DNA from: an uncultured Actinomycetes bacterium
Lineage (GTDB): Bacteria; Actinomycetota; Actinomycetes; Nanopelagicales; Nanopelagicaceae
Reading direction: 5' to 3'
NCBI GenBank assembly: GCA_903891755.1
Contig: CAITFY010000072.1
Span: 1-43,569, forward strand
Length of the DNA: 43,569 bases
In this document: positions 15,150 through 41,034 of the stretch, in pieces
Layout: every line of letters starts with the position of its first letter
Position numbering within the stretch: the first letter of the stretch is position 1
Notes under the pieces: generated by a model
The model's input: only the letters and a program-made list of their open reading frames with translations
Database searches by the model: none
What the model was told of the DNA's origin: nothing
Program-made: the position numbers and the translations under genes

Positions 15150-15674
15150 TTATCGGTCGGCGGCGATTCTCCACTTTTCCATGATTGTTAGTTGCTTGGT
15201 CATGGCGGAGTAGTGCGCCAACTCTTTCTTCTGATTCTTTGAGTGGACTGCTAATACGCATTTTTTTGCGGTCGCAACGTTGGTGTAGCACTTTGTTATA
15301 GCTTGCTGTTGGCTCAACTCAAAGGAGTACCAAGAGTATGCCGCTAGATCATAGGACCTAAAAGTTGTGCGAGCTGGGTAGGTAGTATTCGAAGTTGGGC
15401 TCAGATAAGTCCAATTCTTGGCTAAGTCTTTATCGAATGTGACCAATGCGGTTTTGATTGTAAAGAGCTGCTTATTCATCTTCGATACCGCGGCTTGAAC
15501 CGTTGCCGAAGAAGCCTTCGTTGTGATCGTGCCATTGATAACGCTGAAATCATGAATGCTCACTACGGTCGCATCGTATTCTCCAACGAGGTCAACTGCC
15601 TTCGCTGGAGCGGACATCAGCCCCAGCACGCAGAGTGCTAAGGCTGATGTAGCTAAACGTTTCTTTGCCTTCAT
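15150..15674 (-). CDS. Small secreted protein of unknown function
   Basis: Signal peptide MKAKKRLATSALALCVLGLMSAPAKA; ATG overlaps the upstream stop (TAATG), supporting start at 15674. Confidence 0.7.
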   Translation of the reverse strand: MKAKKRLATSALALCVLGLMSAPAKAVDLVGEYDATVVSIHDFSVINGTITTKASSATVQAAVSKMNKQLFTIKTALVTFDKDLAKNWTYLSPTSNTTYPARTTFRSYDLAAYSWYSFELSQQQAITKCYTNVATAKKCVLAVHSKNQKKELAHYSAMTKQLTIMEKWRIAADR

Positions 15675-17404
15675 TATGCCCATTTAGCAACGATAGTGAT
15701 ATCGCCACTTGGGGTAAATGGTGAGGTTATTGGGGTTCCATTGACATCACCATTTGCCCAAGAGAGCGTTAAGGCTCCGTTGGTAAGAGTTGGCAATGTA
15801 ACTGCAGATCCCTGGGCGACCACCATTGAGGTGATATCTGGGCTTGCCAGGTTATTTGTTCCACCGTTGGGATCGATGATAACGATCGAAGAGGTTGAAG
15901 CAGCCGGGATAACCGAGAAGGCGAAGGTCACTTGCGGAGCGGCAAAATATGGTGCTGCTCCAGCTTGATCTGCGTGGATAGTGCAGGTACCAGCAGCGAG
16001 AGCGTGAACTTCAGTAACAGAAGCAACGGTAACAAGTGAGCAAATTGTGCTACTTGTCGTGTCAACCGTATAGGTGACAGGCAGTGAGCTGGATGCTGCA
16101 GCCTGCAGAGCCTGATTAAATCCACCAACACGCATGTGAACAGGGTTGATGTATGAAATCTGCTGATTGATGCCAGCAATAACGGTGAGCGTGAAGTGTG
16201 CGGTAGAACTTCCCGATGCGTTCGTAGCTGTCAATGTATAGGAAGTATTTGCTTGAGCGTTTGTAGGTGCTCCACTCAAAATACCTGTTGTTACATTGAA
16301 TGTGGTCCCCGCAGGTGCAGCAGGGGAGAGAGCGTAACTCGTTACTGCGTCACCGGTATTCTTGATGACGTATCCAGGGATAGCCTCTAACTGATTTACT
16401 GAAATCGCTGAGGTGGAAAGCGTAATTGCAGGAGCTTTCAGAGTGACAGTAATTACGCCACCGGTTCCACCGGTTCCACCGGTTCCATACGAACTTGGCG
16501 GCGGTGGTGGTGGTGGAGAATAAACAGCGTCGGCGGCAAGCACTGTGATATCACCCGATGTGGTTGACCCGTTTGGATAGTCATTCCGAGTGGTTGTAAC
16601 GGTCACGGAAGTCTTGACGCTTGCAGCCAACTTTGTAACTGTGATCTGCCCCGTACTTGAAATAAAGACAGTTCCACCTGCTACATCTTTAGCAGTCCAT
16701 GTAAATGCTGAATCGTAATTAGCAATCTGGACGATGTAGCCATCTTTCGTAGGTGTGATAGTTCCTAAAGTTGGAACCAGCGCAACTGCAGGTGCCGTGG
16801 TTGTAGGAGTAATTGTTGGGGGAGTGACAACAGGTGTTGGAGTAGGAACCGGTACTGGGATGAGTGGAGCAGTGGGCGTTGGTGGTACGAATGGACGCGC
16901 GATTGTTCCGACGGTAGCTAGCTTCAAAAGTTTTGCAGAGAAGAGGACAGATGCTTTGCCCTTGACGGTTACAAAGATAGTCGCGGTCTTAGCGATGGTG
17001 CTCTTGAATGAGAAGGCGAATGTTCCAACCTTGTCAGCGGTGTAAGTGCCGATTGCGGTTTGAGCGGCCTTTGCGTTCTTCAAGAGAGAAAGTCCAAGCA
17101 CTGCCTTTAGCTTCGCGAACTTTGGTCCCGCAGCAAGGGTGTATTGCACCTTTGGGGCTGGCTTTGTTGCTACCACTGGCTTTGTTGTTGACTGAACTTT
17201 GGGGGTTGCAGCCTTGGGTGCTGTCACCTTTGGCGCAGCTGCTGGCTTTGTTTGTGGCATAACCATTCCCGCTGGCATTGGGGTTTGCGTTGGCGTCGCC
17301 GCATTAGCAGATTGCCCAAGGAAGCCAGTTACTGAAATCAATGCCCCGGAAAGGGCGATAGCGAGTATCGCCTTTCCTTGCGCTGTCTTCGAATTGATAT
17401 TCAT
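15674..17404 (-). CDS. Secreted surface protein with He_PIG/Ig-like and InlB-repeat-like C-terminal domains
   Basis: MNINSKTAQGKAILAIALSGALIS signal peptide; Pro-rich linker; YALSPAAPAGTTFNVTTGILSGAPTNAQANTSYTLTATNASGSSTAHFTLTV (He_PIG-like); C-terminal InlB-like module. Confidence 0.78.
   Translation of the reverse strand: MNINSKTAQGKAILAIALSGALISVTGFLGQSANAATPTQTPMPAGMVMPQTKPAAAPKVTAPKAATPKVQSTTKPVVATKPAPKVQYTLAAGPKFAKLKAVLGLSLLKNAKAAQTAIGTYTADKVGTFAFSFKSTIAKTATIFVTVKGKASVLFSAKLLKLATVGTIARPFVPPTPTAPLIPVPVPTPTPVVTPPTITPTTTAPAVALVPTLGTITPTKDGYIVQIANYDSAFTWTAKDVAGGTVFISSTGQITVTKLAASVKTSVTVTTTRNDYPNGSTTSGDITVLAADAVYSPPPPPPPSSYGTGGTGGTGGVITVTLKAPAITLSTSAISVNQLEAIPGYVIKNTGDAVTSYALSPAAPAGTTFNVTTGILSGAPTNAQANTSYTLTATNASGSSTAHFTLTVIAGINQQISYINPVHMRVGGFNQALQAAASSSLPVTYTVDTTSSTICSLVTVASVTEVHALAAGTCTIHADQAGAAPYFAAPQVTFAFSVIPAASTSSIVIIDPNGGTNNLASPDITSMVVAQGSAVTLPTLTNGALTLSWANGDVNGTPITSPFTPSGDITIVAKWA
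16458..16487 (-). repeat. 9-bp tandem repeat (CCACCGGTT x3 plus CCA) encoding Gly/Thr linker
   Basis: Perfect repeats read directly, followed by a ggcggcggtggtggtggtgg poly-Pro-coding tract. Confidence 0.9.
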
Positions 17405-17417
17405 GTTCCTCTGCTTC

Positions 17418-20400
17418 CTATGGGATCTGTACATATACGACGTTGGATGGGTCAGACAAGATGTCAGCTGACGGGAATTGACCCATGTTTTTGACACCGA
17501 TGGTGTCCACAGCTAGGACTCTGTATTGATAATGAACACCTGAGGTGAGAGGAGGGGTATCAGTGAATGTCCACGGTTCTCCCGTGCTCAAACCATAATC
17601 ATCTACGGTTTGGTGCACGTTGTTCCATTTAGGTGCATGGTCATTCAGTTGCTGAACTGGAACCCACGGATCATTTACAGATACGCGACGTTGCAAGATA
17701 AATCCGGTTTCATTCATTGAGTTATCAACGAAGGAGACATTCACGTGAGCTGCAACTGCACCTACTGCTGCCACATATGTTGTGTCAGCGGTTTGTAGAG
17801 CTGTTGGAGATTTCATTGCTACGCCAACTGGAATCTGACGCATGAAGTCATTCTCTTCGTGTCCAAGGAGGTGGCAGTGGAACATATATTCCCAGCCGTA
17901 GTTAACCAATTGGTTGTAGTTAACACTCGTAGCATTGGTTGGATCGTAGTTCGCCATATTCATATCTTGGGAAGTTATTGCAACACCGTTGATATCGAAT
18001 AGCGCAGTCTGTGGATCGCTTGGACGAATGCTATTTGGAAGCTGCCAAGGAACGATTGGAACGATTGGCTTAATCGCTACATACACGATGGTCAATTGAT
18101 CCATCTGGACTGTATCGCGCCATCCCAAGTCATAGGCTGGAAGTGGCTGATTGATACCGTCCCAACCAGTAATTGCAACGATCTGCACGTTAAACATATG
18201 GAAGTGGATGAAGTGAGTATCCACGCCGTTATGTGTAAAGCGCCAGATCTGTGTTCCATCTGGAAGTGAATCGACAGGTTTACCACCGTTTGCAACCAAT
18301 TCATTTGCTGAGTTGGTGTTGATGATCTCTGTCGGATAGTCAACGCTCGACCAAGGCAGAGTGGTCTGATTTACAAAGTTTGTCACAGAAAGTTCAGATG
18401 ACATCGTTGCATTCATACGCCCGTACATATTGTCGAAGAGTTCTTGAATTCCAGTTTCATGGAAGGTCACTGAAACTTGTTGCGAACTCAAGATGGCAGT
18501 TGCAGATGTTGTATCCGTATAGCCATCTGGATAGAGCAGCTCGACAGTAGGGGCTGAGAGGTAACCAGAGCCAGGGTTTGTCACGTTGAGAGATGTGACT
18601 TGTCCAGCGCCAAGGGTAACCGCAGCCGTTGTGTTGTCAGACAAATTAGCTATGTAGGGAGTCCCGGTGACATAGCCTGCGCCTGGATCAACAACAGTAA
18701 ATTGCAACGAACCGACGCTCATCACCGCTGTAGCAGTCGCCGCTGTGCCTGTGGTTGGTGCGTCAATTGTGAAGACTGGTGTTGAGGTGTATCCCAATCC
18801 AGTGCCTGCCGCAATTGTGATAGAGGAAACTGAGGTAGGGGTCATTGAAGCCGTTGCAACCGCAGTCGAAGCGATGTTAAAGCTGATCAGTGGGGTGCTC
18901 GTGAAGTCACTCACCGTATTAGTCTTTGTGATGCTCGCAATTGAGGTAGGAGCAAGGACTGGATCTAGTTGTGCACCGCCAGTTCCTGAGATCGCGATAA
19001 CTGGGTCAGCTGTAAAGCTGCCAAGGTTGGCGGGATCAAGGGTCACTCCAGCAATAGGACCCGGGGTGAGTTGGGCAGTTGCGACAGGAGAAGTAGTACA
19101 AGTCATTCCAACCGGAGTAATGGAAACCGTTGGTGCCGACGTGTAATTAGTTCCGCCGTAGACAACTCCAATTGATTGGAGTGAGGCGTTCGCACCAGAG
19201 ACATGGGCATTACCCATAGCAAATGCTTGGGAAGCAACTACTGCTCCGCCGGTGCGGCCACCCGTCAGCGTCACTGCAAAGTAAGCAAGGGCAGGGTCGT
19301 AAGCGGCGCCCGTAACTGTACAAACACCTGGGTTTGTAACGGTCACAGATTGGACGGAGGTCGATAGGAAGGCAGTAGCGAAAGCATTGCCAGTCGCGCT
19401 TCCTGAAATAGTAATGGTAGGTGCGCTGGTATAGAGACCACCATTGAGAACATTGATGCCAAGAAGCGGTGTTGGGCTCAAGACCGCAACTGCGTTTTGG
19501 ACATCATTATTCACAGTAATGCCAGCAACAGTTACCAACGGAGTCTTCGTGAAAGTTCCGCCGTTATAGATGTTAATTGAGGCGATGCTGGTTGGGCTAA
19601 GTTCCGCAGTAGCTACCGCTGGAACTGTCGCTGCACCACTTACAGTTACGTTTGGAGTCGTGGTGTAACCACTATTGGTGGAGACGGTGACGGTGGAGAT
19701 GTTATTCGCACCAGCCATCTCACTTTGAACAACTGCGGTACGGGCATTTGGACCCGCCGGTGCGGGAGTAATCGAATTTACGGTCGGAGCAGTGGTGTAT
19801 GCGCTTGGGTTAGAAACCGAAACGCTTCCCACGGTATCTGGGGGAGAAATTGTGGCCACGGCTCTGGCGCCGTTTCCATTTCCACCATCCCCTTCAGTAC
19901 CCGTCGCAACATTTATCTGGTCGCCGATGAGAACCTGGGGAGTAGTAGTCTCGAGAGGATTTAACTTTGTTGGGTCAATCGCAATCGCTGCCACACCGGT
20001 TGAAGTTACTGCGAGTGAGGTATCACCAAGTGCTGGATAAAGATTGTCCTTAGTGTTCGTACCCAGGGCTGGGTTATATGCAACCTGAGCGACTACAGGT
20101 GCATCTTGCGATGCCTTGTAATAAGTATGAATTGCATCTGTTAGGGCTGTGGTAACCGTCTGGGTTCCTGGTTGGAAGATTGAAGTTCCTGCTGTACCAG
20201 CGAGATCCCGGTCAACTTGAATCTGCATGATTGTGCGTGTGTTAGGCGCATAACCAGGGATGGTTGCAGGAGCTCCACCGGAAACTGTTTGATCCCAGTC
20301 ACCTGTGAAGTAGTCGAAACGAGGATCCCAACCAGGGAATGGGGCAGGAGCATCGTTGTAGAGGATCAGCGTTGAACCTGCTGGAACATTGGTGAGGTCA

Positions 20401-23255: not shown

Positions 23256-24044
23256 ATGAGCCCTCGGGATCTCGGAGCAAATGAGATGGGTGATTCAAAC
23301 TCATTTTCGCTATCCGTTCTCAGTTTGCTTGATTGGCTAAATAGCGAACCGAGACTCGACGATATCTGTCGCGGTTTAGTTATTGCTTACCTTCATCAGT
23401 ACCAGCCTTCAAAGGCTCGCATCGTTCAATTTAATAACGACGACTCTCTCACAGTTCTCTCGGATTATGGTTACCTTTCAGCTGTTGGTCATGCTTCAAA
23501 ATCTTTAAATCCAGCACAATGGCGACAATCTACAAATGACTTTTCTAAGCTCCTTGGTTGCCAGGAGAAATTTTATTGGAACCGCAACTCCACAGCAGTT
23601 ATCGTTCCCTTCCGCCCACGAGGAATTGTCTCAGGTGCACTTTCTATTGGCTTTGATCTGCCACAAAGAAAGACAGATGAGATTGGTGCAGTTGCCGCGC
23701 AAATTGGAATGGCGATTGCGCTTTTTGTAAATCTCACCTCGAACAACCGAACTTTTTCGCAAGAACAAAAGCCAATGGCTTCGCAAGGTCAATCTGAATA
23801 TGAAAGTATGCGTGAAGCCTTCACTGGAACTGCGACGCACACCACAAAGAACAGCGGTATGACTGGTCGTCAGCTTCAAATTCTAGAGGGCATGATCGAA
23901 GGCAAGACAAACTTCGAAATCGCCAGCGAATTGGGTTACAGCGTTTCTACTGTGCGTCAAGAAACCATCAAGATTTATCAGACTCTCAATGTCACTGGAC
24001 GCCGCGCTGCTGCGCAGGAAGCGCTAAGACAAAAAATCGTATAA
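23256..24044 (+). CDS. LuxR-family transcriptional regulator with GAF-like N-terminus
   Basis: C-terminal MTGRQLQILEGMIEGKTNFEIASELGYSVSTVRQETIKIYQTLNVTGRRAAAQEA is a LuxR HTH; upstream RBS AGAAGGAAG. Confidence 0.85.
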   Translation: MSPRDLGANEMGDSNSFSLSVLSLLDWLNSEPRLDDICRGLVIAYLHQYQPSKARIVQFNNDDSLTVLSDYGYLSAVGHASKSLNPAQWRQSTNDFSKLLGCQEKFYWNRNSTAVIVPFRPRGIVSGALSIGFDLPQRKTDEIGAVAAQIGMAIALFVNLTSNNRTFSQEQKPMASQGQSEYESMREAFTGTATHTTKNSGMTGRQLQILEGMIEGKTNFEIASELGYSVSTVRQETIKIYQTLNVTGRRAAAQEALRQKIV

Positions 24045-24080
24045 ACCTTCACTAATAATCGTATAAACCTTCACTAATAA
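24037..24080 (+). repeat. Perfect 22-bp tandem duplication across the stop codon of the LuxR-type gene
   Basis: TCGTATAAACCTTCACTAATAA at 24037-24058 and 24059-24080. Confidence 0.97.
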
Positions 24081-24135: not shown

Positions 24136-24165
24136 CACATATCGATATTGCCCTATAAATACGGC

Positions 24166-38913: not shown

Positions 38914-40182
38914 GTGATGAGTAACTCCAGCAAAAAAGTATTGATTGTTGGCGGCGGCGCGTCGGGTACCATTACCGCCATTGCGTTGATTCGCGCCGGT
39001 GTACTGCCCGAAAATATTGTTATCGCTGAACCGCGTGAGTTACTCGGTGAAGGCTTGGCTTACCAGACGAGAGATGAGCTCCATCGCCTCAACGTTCCAT
39101 CTGGACGATTAAGTGCAGTCGAAGAACTTCCTGATGACTTTGCGCTCTGGGCTGATGCTCCCTCATATTCATTTATGGAGCGTCGGATGTATAGCACCTA
39201 CTTAAGAGAACATCTAGGCAATGGAGTTCGACATCTGAGAGAGATAGTCACAGACCTAGAACCTTCATCGAGTGGAAAAGTATTAGCAACATTCGAGGAT
39301 CATTCCAAAGAGGAATTTGATGCAGTTGTTCTTGCGATGGGACTTGGGAAGGCTAGAGTTCCAAACTTTCTTCACGGAGCACCTGACTCACCACTCATTA
39401 TTAAGGATGTGTGGGATGGCAATCCTCTCCCTGAAGCAAGAACACTGCTTTGTTTTGGAACTGGTTTGACCTTTATAGATGTGGCTTTAACTCATTTAGC
39501 GAGAAACCCTCAAAACCGGGTTATCGCCATTTCCGGTTCGGGGAATTTACCAGAGAGGCATGAGAGATCTCAGATCTCGCCTTTTACCCCCACGCTCTCT
39601 GATGTGAACTCGCTGGAGAAATTACGTCGGTACTTCGCTGAAGCCGGAGAATCATGGCGCGAGGCGGTCGATGGGTTACGACCAATTATGGAATCCATGT
39701 GGCGGTCTTTTAGTTCTGAGGAACGTGAAGAATTTCTACGTACTGATGGGTCAGTGTGGTTTCGCCGTCGCCATCGCATTGCACCAGATGTGGCGGATCG
39801 TGTTGACGCTGAGATTGCAGCCGGACGGATCACGGTGATGAGTGGGAAGGTGGTCGAAGCCTTGGTTAGCCAGAATCAGGTTCATCTAACTTTGGAAGAT
39901 GGCCACACGCATGTTGGCGATTACTTGGCGCTATGTATTGGTCGGGATTATGAACTTTCTGATCCACTGACGCTCAATCTCTTGAAAGGCGGCAAAACTT
40001 CTCGCGGTCCTTTAGGTATGGGATTACATGTTGATGTTTCAACAGGATTGTTATTAAAACCTGATGGCACATCGCTTTCAAACATTTTCGCGCTTGGGCC
40101 ACTTCGTTCAGGTGAAGCTTTTGAGAGCACCGCGATTCCTGAAATCAGGAAGCAGGCTTTCTCCATCGCCAAAAGCTTGTAA
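38914..40182 (+). CDS. FAD/NAD(P)-binding protein
   Basis: VLIVGGGASGTITAIALIRAG dinucleotide-binding motif; LGEGLAYQTRDELHRLNVPSGRLS. Confidence 0.9.
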   Translation: MMSNSSKKVLIVGGGASGTITAIALIRAGVLPENIVIAEPRELLGEGLAYQTRDELHRLNVPSGRLSAVEELPDDFALWADAPSYSFMERRMYSTYLREHLGNGVRHLREIVTDLEPSSSGKVLATFEDHSKEEFDAVVLAMGLGKARVPNFLHGAPDSPLIIKDVWDGNPLPEARTLLCFGTGLTFIDVALTHLARNPQNRVIAISGSGNLPERHERSQISPFTPTLSDVNSLEKLRRYFAEAGESWREAVDGLRPIMESMWRSFSSEEREEFLRTDGSVWFRRRHRIAPDVADRVDAEIAAGRITVMSGKVVEALVSQNQVHLTLEDGHTHVGDYLALCIGRDYELSDPLTLNLLKGGKTSRGPLGMGLHVDVSTGLLLKPDGTSLSNIFALGPLRSGEAFESTAIPEIRKQAFSIAKSL

Positions 40183-40205: not shown

Positions 40206-40234
40206 GTTAGGAATTCGTTAGGAATTGTTAGGAA
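40206..40234 (+). promoter_or_regulatory. Triple GTTAGGAA direct repeat, putative operator
   Basis: GTTAGGAA at 40206-40213, 40217-40224 and 40227-40234; start-to-start spacing 11 and 10 bp. Confidence 0.65.
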
Positions 40235-40281
40235 CCCTCGATTTGAGGTGACAACCGCAAAATTGAGTCTATTTTTAACTC

Positions 40282-41034
40282 ATGGCCTCGGTCGGAAGTA
40301 AGTCGTTTTGGGAGAAGCTCAGGTGGTTCGCTCCCGTTACAGTTTTATTAGGCGTAATGCCTCTGTCCCTCCTCGCCCTACATTTTTTCTTACAGAAACT
40401 GGGACTCACCGCCAGCACCTTGATTCTCTTGGTGGTGACTGTTTTTTACTCACTTGGTTCGGGTATCTGGGTAGCGATCCTGCTCTCCCTCGAGAGCGAT
40501 CTATACCTCAATTATTACCTGACTAGACCTTTCCACTCCTTCCGAGTCTCCGAGAAAAATGGCGTAACAACACTGATCGTCTACGTCTTAGCGAGCACCA
40601 CAGTCTCTGCGTTAGTGAAGCTCTTAGCCACTAAACAAAATGAGATTCAAGCCCTACTGGCGCGCATAGAAAATCTCGCTTCTAAATCCGGCAACAAGCC
40701 GGCCGAGGCATACACCCTTGGAAATTGGGATGTGAATCTTGCAAAGCGCGCAGTCTCGGATTCCGGGAATGAAAATATCCATGTCCACCTCACCCCTATT
40801 GAATGGAAGATTCTTGAGGTTCTTGTTAAGGCCGAGGGCGGGCTCGTCTCCCAGCAACAAGTCTTGAAAGAGGTTTGGGGGGATAAGTACATGAGCGAAA
40901 CAAATTATTTAAGACTTTATCTCAGCCAACTACGTAAGAAGTTAGAGGCAACTCCAAAACGTCCAGTTTTATTAATAACAGAAGCAGGGGCAGGTTATAG
41001 AGCAATGGCAACTCGTAAGTCGGTCGCAAAGTGA
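40282..41034 (+). CDS. Membrane one-component regulator: KdpD-like DUF4118 TM domain fused to KdpE-like winged helix
   Basis: N-terminal TMs ending SDLYLNYYLTRPFHSFRVSEKNGVTTLIVYVLASTTVSALVKLLA (DUF4118-like); C-terminal VHLTPIEWKILEVLVKAEGGLVSQQQVLKEVWGDKYMSETNYLRLYLSQLRKKLEATPKRPVLLITEAGAGYRAM (KdpE-like). No receiver or kinase motifs. Confidence 0.85.
   Translation: MASVGSKSFWEKLRWFAPVTVLLGVMPLSLLALHFFLQKLGLTASTLILLVVTVFYSLGSGIWVAILLSLESDLYLNYYLTRPFHSFRVSEKNGVTTLIVYVLASTTVSALVKLLATKQNEIQALLARIENLASKSGNKPAEAYTLGNWDVNLAKRAVSDSGNENIHVHLTPIEWKILEVLVKAEGGLVSQQQVLKEVWGDKYMSETNYLRLYLSQLRKKLEATPKRPVLLITEAGAGYRAMATRKSVAK

Follow-up and report, generated by a model that had tools for sequence, protein, structure and literature searches.

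Tandem repeats upstream of a fused KdpD/KdpE-like regulator and kimA: a probable KdpE-type operator in Nanopelagicaceae

Three direct repeats in front of the gene for a membrane-anchored winged-helix protein are probably a KdpE-type operator: the protein, a fusion apparently derived from KdpD and KdpE, would bind them and control its own operon, which includes the potassium importer gene kimA. The locus is found in a window of 43,569 nucleotides, i.e. the whole stretch of DNA that was analysed, and has the following features:

40206..40213, plus strand: repeat 1, GTTAGGAA; first half-site of the conserved 7-N4-7 box, kept at all six fused-regulator genes
40217..40224, plus strand: repeat 2, GTTAGGAA; second half-site, 11 bp from repeat 1, also kept at all six
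40227..40234, plus strand: repeat 3, GTTAGGAA; 10 bp from repeat 2, in the three closest species only
40248..40275, plus strand: putative promoter; -35-like GTGACA (40248-40253), 16-bp spacer, -10-like TATTTT (40270-40275)
40282..41034, plus strand: fused regulator, 250 aa; DUF4118, likely remnant of a receiver helix, KdpE-like winged helix
41031..43400, plus strand: kimA homologue, 789 aa; potassium importer family, C-terminal OB-fold

The repeat array and its conservation

The initial annotation had reported three helically phased direct repeats here, and we do find three copies of GTTAGGAA, starting at 40206, 40217 and 40227 with spacings of 11 and 10 bp. There is no other copy in the window on either strand, and the array is also picked up by Tandem Repeats Finder. 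It sits within the 99-bp gap between the stop of the preceding gene (38914-40182, an FAD/NAD(P)-binding protein) and the ATG of the regulator at 40282, which is 47 bp past the end of the third copy. Operators of the OmpR/PhoB type are recognised by direct repeats that are spaced by about one turn of the helix and located upstream of the target promoter, and the array shows this arrangement. A scan of the window with Rfam gave no RNA family, so a known riboswitch is rejected as an explanation of the leader.

In the 1.27 Mb draft genome two copies of GTTAGGAA separated by 1-4 bp occur at a single locus, while the reversed pattern, used as control, has 0 matches. When the search is relaxed to the 7-N4-7 pattern with at most three mismatches there are 53 matches in the rest of the genome, compared with 131 for the reversed control, and the best site outside the array has two mismatches. 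As near matches are fewer than in the control, no wider regulon is visible in this genome.

The fused protein is encoded in six of the 32 genomes of the genus, the majority of which are incomplete drafts. The five proteins from outside the window are 46-93% identical to the one in it. Beyond these, no fused protein turned up in the rest of 296 genomes from the order, and a sample of 398 genomes from the phylum yielded only that of the window itself.

All six fused-regulator genes have GTTAGGA-N4-GTTAGGA upstream. The orthologue comparison proposed in the initial annotation thus gives at least two copies, 11 bp apart and at the same place, in every case. The box remains beside the gene even where the protein is only 46-47% identical, and the sequence from the box to the promoter has diverged among the six loci. 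G000, G013 and G005 also have the third copy. In G027 it is inverted (TTCCTAAC), and G028 and G007 have only a degenerate form of it. Across these loci the conserved core is the pair with its 4-bp spacer, and the third repeat alone is lineage-specific. The inverted copy in G027 is at the same place, as if the half-site were usable in either orientation. Among the 32 genus genomes the exact tandem occurs in the six with the fused gene and in G019, where it precedes kdpA.

Short tandem repeats are not unique to this locus. A 22-bp unit (AATCGTATAAACCTTCACTAAT) is perfectly duplicated in tandem (2.1 copies) at 24035-24080, between one ORF that ends at 24044 and another that starts at 24148. A 9-bp unit (CCACCGGTT) forms a second perfect array (3.3 copies) at 16458-16487, within the minus-strand ORF 15674-17497. 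The presence of such repeats in the window could suggest that the array, too, is a chance or neutral tandem repeat with no regulatory role. However, its position, spacing and sequence are preserved between species and between different gene contexts, by which we regard this explanation as in practice refuted.

The fused regulator, kimA and the putative promoter

The protein encoded downstream was first described as a DUF4118-wHTH protein, and this holds: it joins DUF4118, the four-helix membrane domain of KdpD (about residues 23-121), to a KdpE-like winged helix of the OmpR/PhoB type (residues 168-240). What is likely a remnant of the last helix of the receiver lies between them, at about residues 115-131. 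DUF4118 and Trans_reg_C are the only Pfam domains in the 250 residues; histidine kinase and receiver domains were not found by Pfam. Together, Pfam and hydropathy show membrane helices and a DNA-binding domain in one chain, with no phosphotransfer domains, i.e. the composition of a transmembrane one-component regulator. The AlphaFold model, taken as evidence for topology alone since the membrane part has pLDDT below 50, has four helices followed by the winged helix.

The best solved relatives of the fused regulator are DNA-binding domains of KdpE. In Escherichia coli, DNA binding by KdpE requires R193, R200 and T215 (PMC3264566), and these align with the identical residues R211, R218 and T233 of the fused protein.

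The second gene encodes a homologue of the potassium importer KimA (match to 6s3k, E 5.4e-91). Its start codon and the stop of the regulator overlap by 4 bp, and the two genes are therefore probably one operon. The array had first been proposed to be an autoregulatory operator. The box is indeed at the regulator's own gene, but the unit that it would control includes kimA, so the control is probably more than autoregulation. With about 785 aa, the KimA homologues of this family exceed the 607 residues of the solved KimA, and the one here has an extra C-terminal OB-fold.

Between the array and the ATG, the promoter candidate GTGACA-16-TATTTT is a weak match to the consensus, no better than in shuffled sequences. 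The -10-like element is kept at the same distance from the ATG in the close relatives G013, G005 and G027. Because this element ends 6 nt before the ATG, the transcript is possibly leaderless.

Other kimA genes are found in the genus. Most genomes have a second, housekeeping-type copy (G000:C7:10574-12922 and equivalents), and where the upstream regions of these copies were read they have no exact GTTAGGA core. Further, three KimAs (L106 in G014, L094 in G003 and L107 in G007) are 71-76% identical to the clade linked to the fused regulator and have neither that regulator nor the box beside them.

The box at sister operons and kdp promoters

A profile search of the family detected a KdpE-like DNA-binding domain and DUF4118 in adjacent genes in two sister genera. 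The gene order of these operons is a short KdpD, a response regulator and kimA. The short KdpD (475-495 aa) consists of DUF4118, HisKA and HATPase, and the response regulator (about 245 aa) of a receiver and a winged helix; the domains of both proteins were checked in three systems and in G205.

All six sister operons have the box, at position -70 or -71 relative to the start codon, in sense orientation and with a spacer of 4, where 0.07 of 6 would be expected from shuffles at a score of at least 11 of 14. For G205 the distance is counted from an ATG that is 39 nt downstream of the longest-ORF start. A seventh operon (G780), held out of the definition of the box, agrees in its genes and carries the box at -71. 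The KdpE site of E. coli, which is activating, is found at -72 to -50 (PMC3264566). The box of the sister operons would have the same position, provided that transcription starts at or near the start codon.

For kdpA we scored the 450 bp upstream of the gene with the GTTAGGA unit of the window alone, the maximum score being 14. In the genus all four kdpA regions score at least 12 (shuffles 0.0). Among 50 class-wide actinobacterial kdpA regions 27 score at least 10 (shuffles 4.1), and 26 of these 27 sites are on the sense strand. With a 4-bp spacer 15 of the 50 regions score at least 11, compared with 0.57 in shuffles, and with any other spacer from 0 to 8 only 0-2 regions do so. The 50 genomes are not mutually independent, but kinship alone would not pick one spacer. 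A clear box is missing at about half of the 50 kdp promoters.

The minimal KdpE site footprinted in Mycobacterium smegmatis is CCGTAAAGAAACCATCAAGGCC (PMC5401905), and it can be read as GTAAAGA-N4-ATCAAGG. Its spacing and first half-site agree with the box; the second half-site matches the consensus poorly. According to that study the motif bears no noticeable resemblance to other KdpE sites, and direct repeats are not mentioned in the text (PMC5401905).

The box is best read as an old actinobacterial KdpE operator, GTYARGA-N4-GTYARGA, i.e. a direct repeat with an 11-bp period, and as judged from the sequences compared it is older than the fusion. The boxes at orthologues, sister operons and kdp operons support the original proposal of an operator, with the correction that its core consists of two repeats and not three.

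The same box in front of kdpA in relatives with canonical Kdp also fits a different reading: a separate canonical KdpE, or another response regulator of the OmpR/PhoB type, might bind it, and the fused protein would have another target or act as a decoy. G005, with the fused gene plus full-length KdpD and KdpE, agrees with this. However, canonical KdpD was not found in the other five fused-gene draft genomes, nor kdpA in any of the six; the fused winged helix retains the DNA-contacting residues, and the box stays beside the fused gene down to the most diverged proteins. We therefore find it unlikely that a separate regulator is the one that binds here.

In G005 the full-length KdpD (840 aa) and KdpE are encoded on contig C64 (L052), alongside the fused regulator, and kdpA was not found in this genome, which is 63% complete. 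As the fused gene and canonical KdpDE coexist there, strict mutual exclusion of Kdp and the fused regulator is ruled out.

Origin of the fusion, proposed mechanism and known systems

Both halves of the fused protein point to the sister systems. In a tree of winged helices the fused proteins group with the KimA-linked response regulators (97/92), apart from the canonical KdpE of the genus, and in a tree of DUF4118, which took in only two canonical KdpDs, they group with the short KdpDs of the sister genera (100/100). In the alignment the fourth membrane helix is directly followed by TKQNEIQALLARIEN, which matches SKPFEIEELVARVEA at the end of the receiver. With ungapped alignments of four fused proteins, 0, 0, 0 and 1 of 1000 shuffles reach the similarity seen between the linker and the last helix of the receiver. 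The similarity of the linker to the post-membrane segment of the kinase does not exceed the shuffles in this way. A short-profile HMM for the receiver-helix remnant did not separate real linkers from shuffled ones, and the junction is therefore graded as likely, short of proven: the fusion likely brought the last receiver helix directly behind the fourth membrane helix.

The fused protein is thus best read as a KimA-linked two-component system that has collapsed into one chain. The kinase and most of the receiver would have been lost, and the last receiver helix, the winged helix, the operator and the linkage to KimA kept.

The history of the importer appears less simple. In the KimA tree the KimAs linked to the fused regulator form a clade of their own, together with some KimAs that lack a linked regulator. 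One simple clade of fused-linked and system-linked KimAs is rejected (p 0.0002), and the wider clade, with the kimA of G016 and G019 included, is not (p 0.27). Since the simple joint clade is rejected, the importer gene may have been exchanged. That the two linked sets of KimA are not simply grouped would also agree with an independent origin of the fusion, from a canonical kdp-linked KdpD/KdpE pair instead of the sister system. Against this, the trees place each half of the protein beside the KimA-linked pair, apart from the KdpDE of the genus, which makes such an origin improbable.

Starting from descent from the KimA-linked pair of a short KdpD and a KdpE-like response regulator, we propose the following mechanism. 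The KdpD-type membrane module would respond to low external K+ or to the state of the membrane. With no phosphotransfer, it would alter how the attached winged helices dimerise or cluster, so that these come to occupy the tandem repeats immediately ahead of the promoter, directly in front of their own gene. Occupation of the repeats would activate transcription of the regulator-kimA operon. For KdpD of E. coli two K+-binding parts are proposed, the membrane domain as the extracellular one and the GAF domain as the intracellular one (PMC11018627). The fused protein retains the membrane domain only, with no GAF, and therefore we propose sensing of external K+ or of the membrane state. We lean towards the view that the KdpD membrane domain, here without any kinase, is a lone K+ sensor that directly drives DNA binding.

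We infer binding, the K+ signal and activation over repression, and the direction is the least certain step: activation is suggested by the position of the box and by the precedents from KdpE. Alternatively, the membrane-tethered winged helix could be a repressor that shuts the kimA operon when K+ is plentiful. Rsp of Neisseria, likewise a collapsed regulator, is described as repressing (PMC10269533), and KdpE of Staphylococcus aureus represses kdp (PMC5401905). However, the putative -35 lies downstream of the box, and KdpE activates from its site both in E. coli (PMC3264566) and in M. smegmatis (PMC5401905). Repression is possible on these grounds, though we consider it doubtful.

The proposed system resembles KdpD/KdpE and the operator of kdpFABC (PMC5401905, PMC3264566) in its KdpD membrane domain, its KdpE-like winged helix with the DNA-contacting residues, a direct-repeat site with an 11-bp period and a potassium importer as target. 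It differs in that the regulator is one polypeptide without kinase and with almost no receiver, that the target is kimA and not kdpFABC, and that the half-site is GTYARGA where the E. coli operator has TTTAYA. The sister KimA-linked system (L156-L161, L205) is the closest relative of both halves and has the same box at a similar distance ahead of its first gene, and the same order of regulator and kimA; in contrast, its HisKA, HATPase and receiver domains are intact and divided between two proteins.

A 4-bp spacer between 7-bp direct repeats is also found in the PhoP box. PhoP of M. tuberculosis strictly requires this spacing of its 7-bp motifs, and its binding is tighter at triple than at double repeats (PMC4832192). 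It is, however, another regulator, and its receivers contribute to the tandem dimer (PMC4832192).

The closest precedent for the fusion itself is Rsp, a PilS-PilR chimera and transmembrane transcription regulator of pilin expression (PMC10269533). In both, the membrane receptor of a kinase is joined to the DNA-binding domain of its response regulator, in Rsp of the PilS-PilR type and here of the KdpD/KdpE type, for potassium uptake. The joining of receptor and DNA-binding domain is thus already known. What is added here, unlike for Rsp, is that operons in the uncollapsed state, with the same operator, can be seen in relatives, which allows a direct comparison. Our literature search found no paper on DUF4118 together with a winged helix.

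Two-component systems are usually viewed as having grown from one-component ones, and the collapse proposed here runs the opposite way. A two-component system would have been reduced to one protein, with uncollapsed sister operons still there for comparison. The analysis further offers a simple consensus for the actinobacterial KdpE operator and would tie KimA to control of the KdpDE type. The fused protein may also serve as a natural experiment on the K+-sensing part of KdpD, as it has the membrane module alone, with no GAF, Usp or kinase. If the proposed reading is true, the change from a two-component to a one-component system can be traced here, with the operator and the type of target kept.
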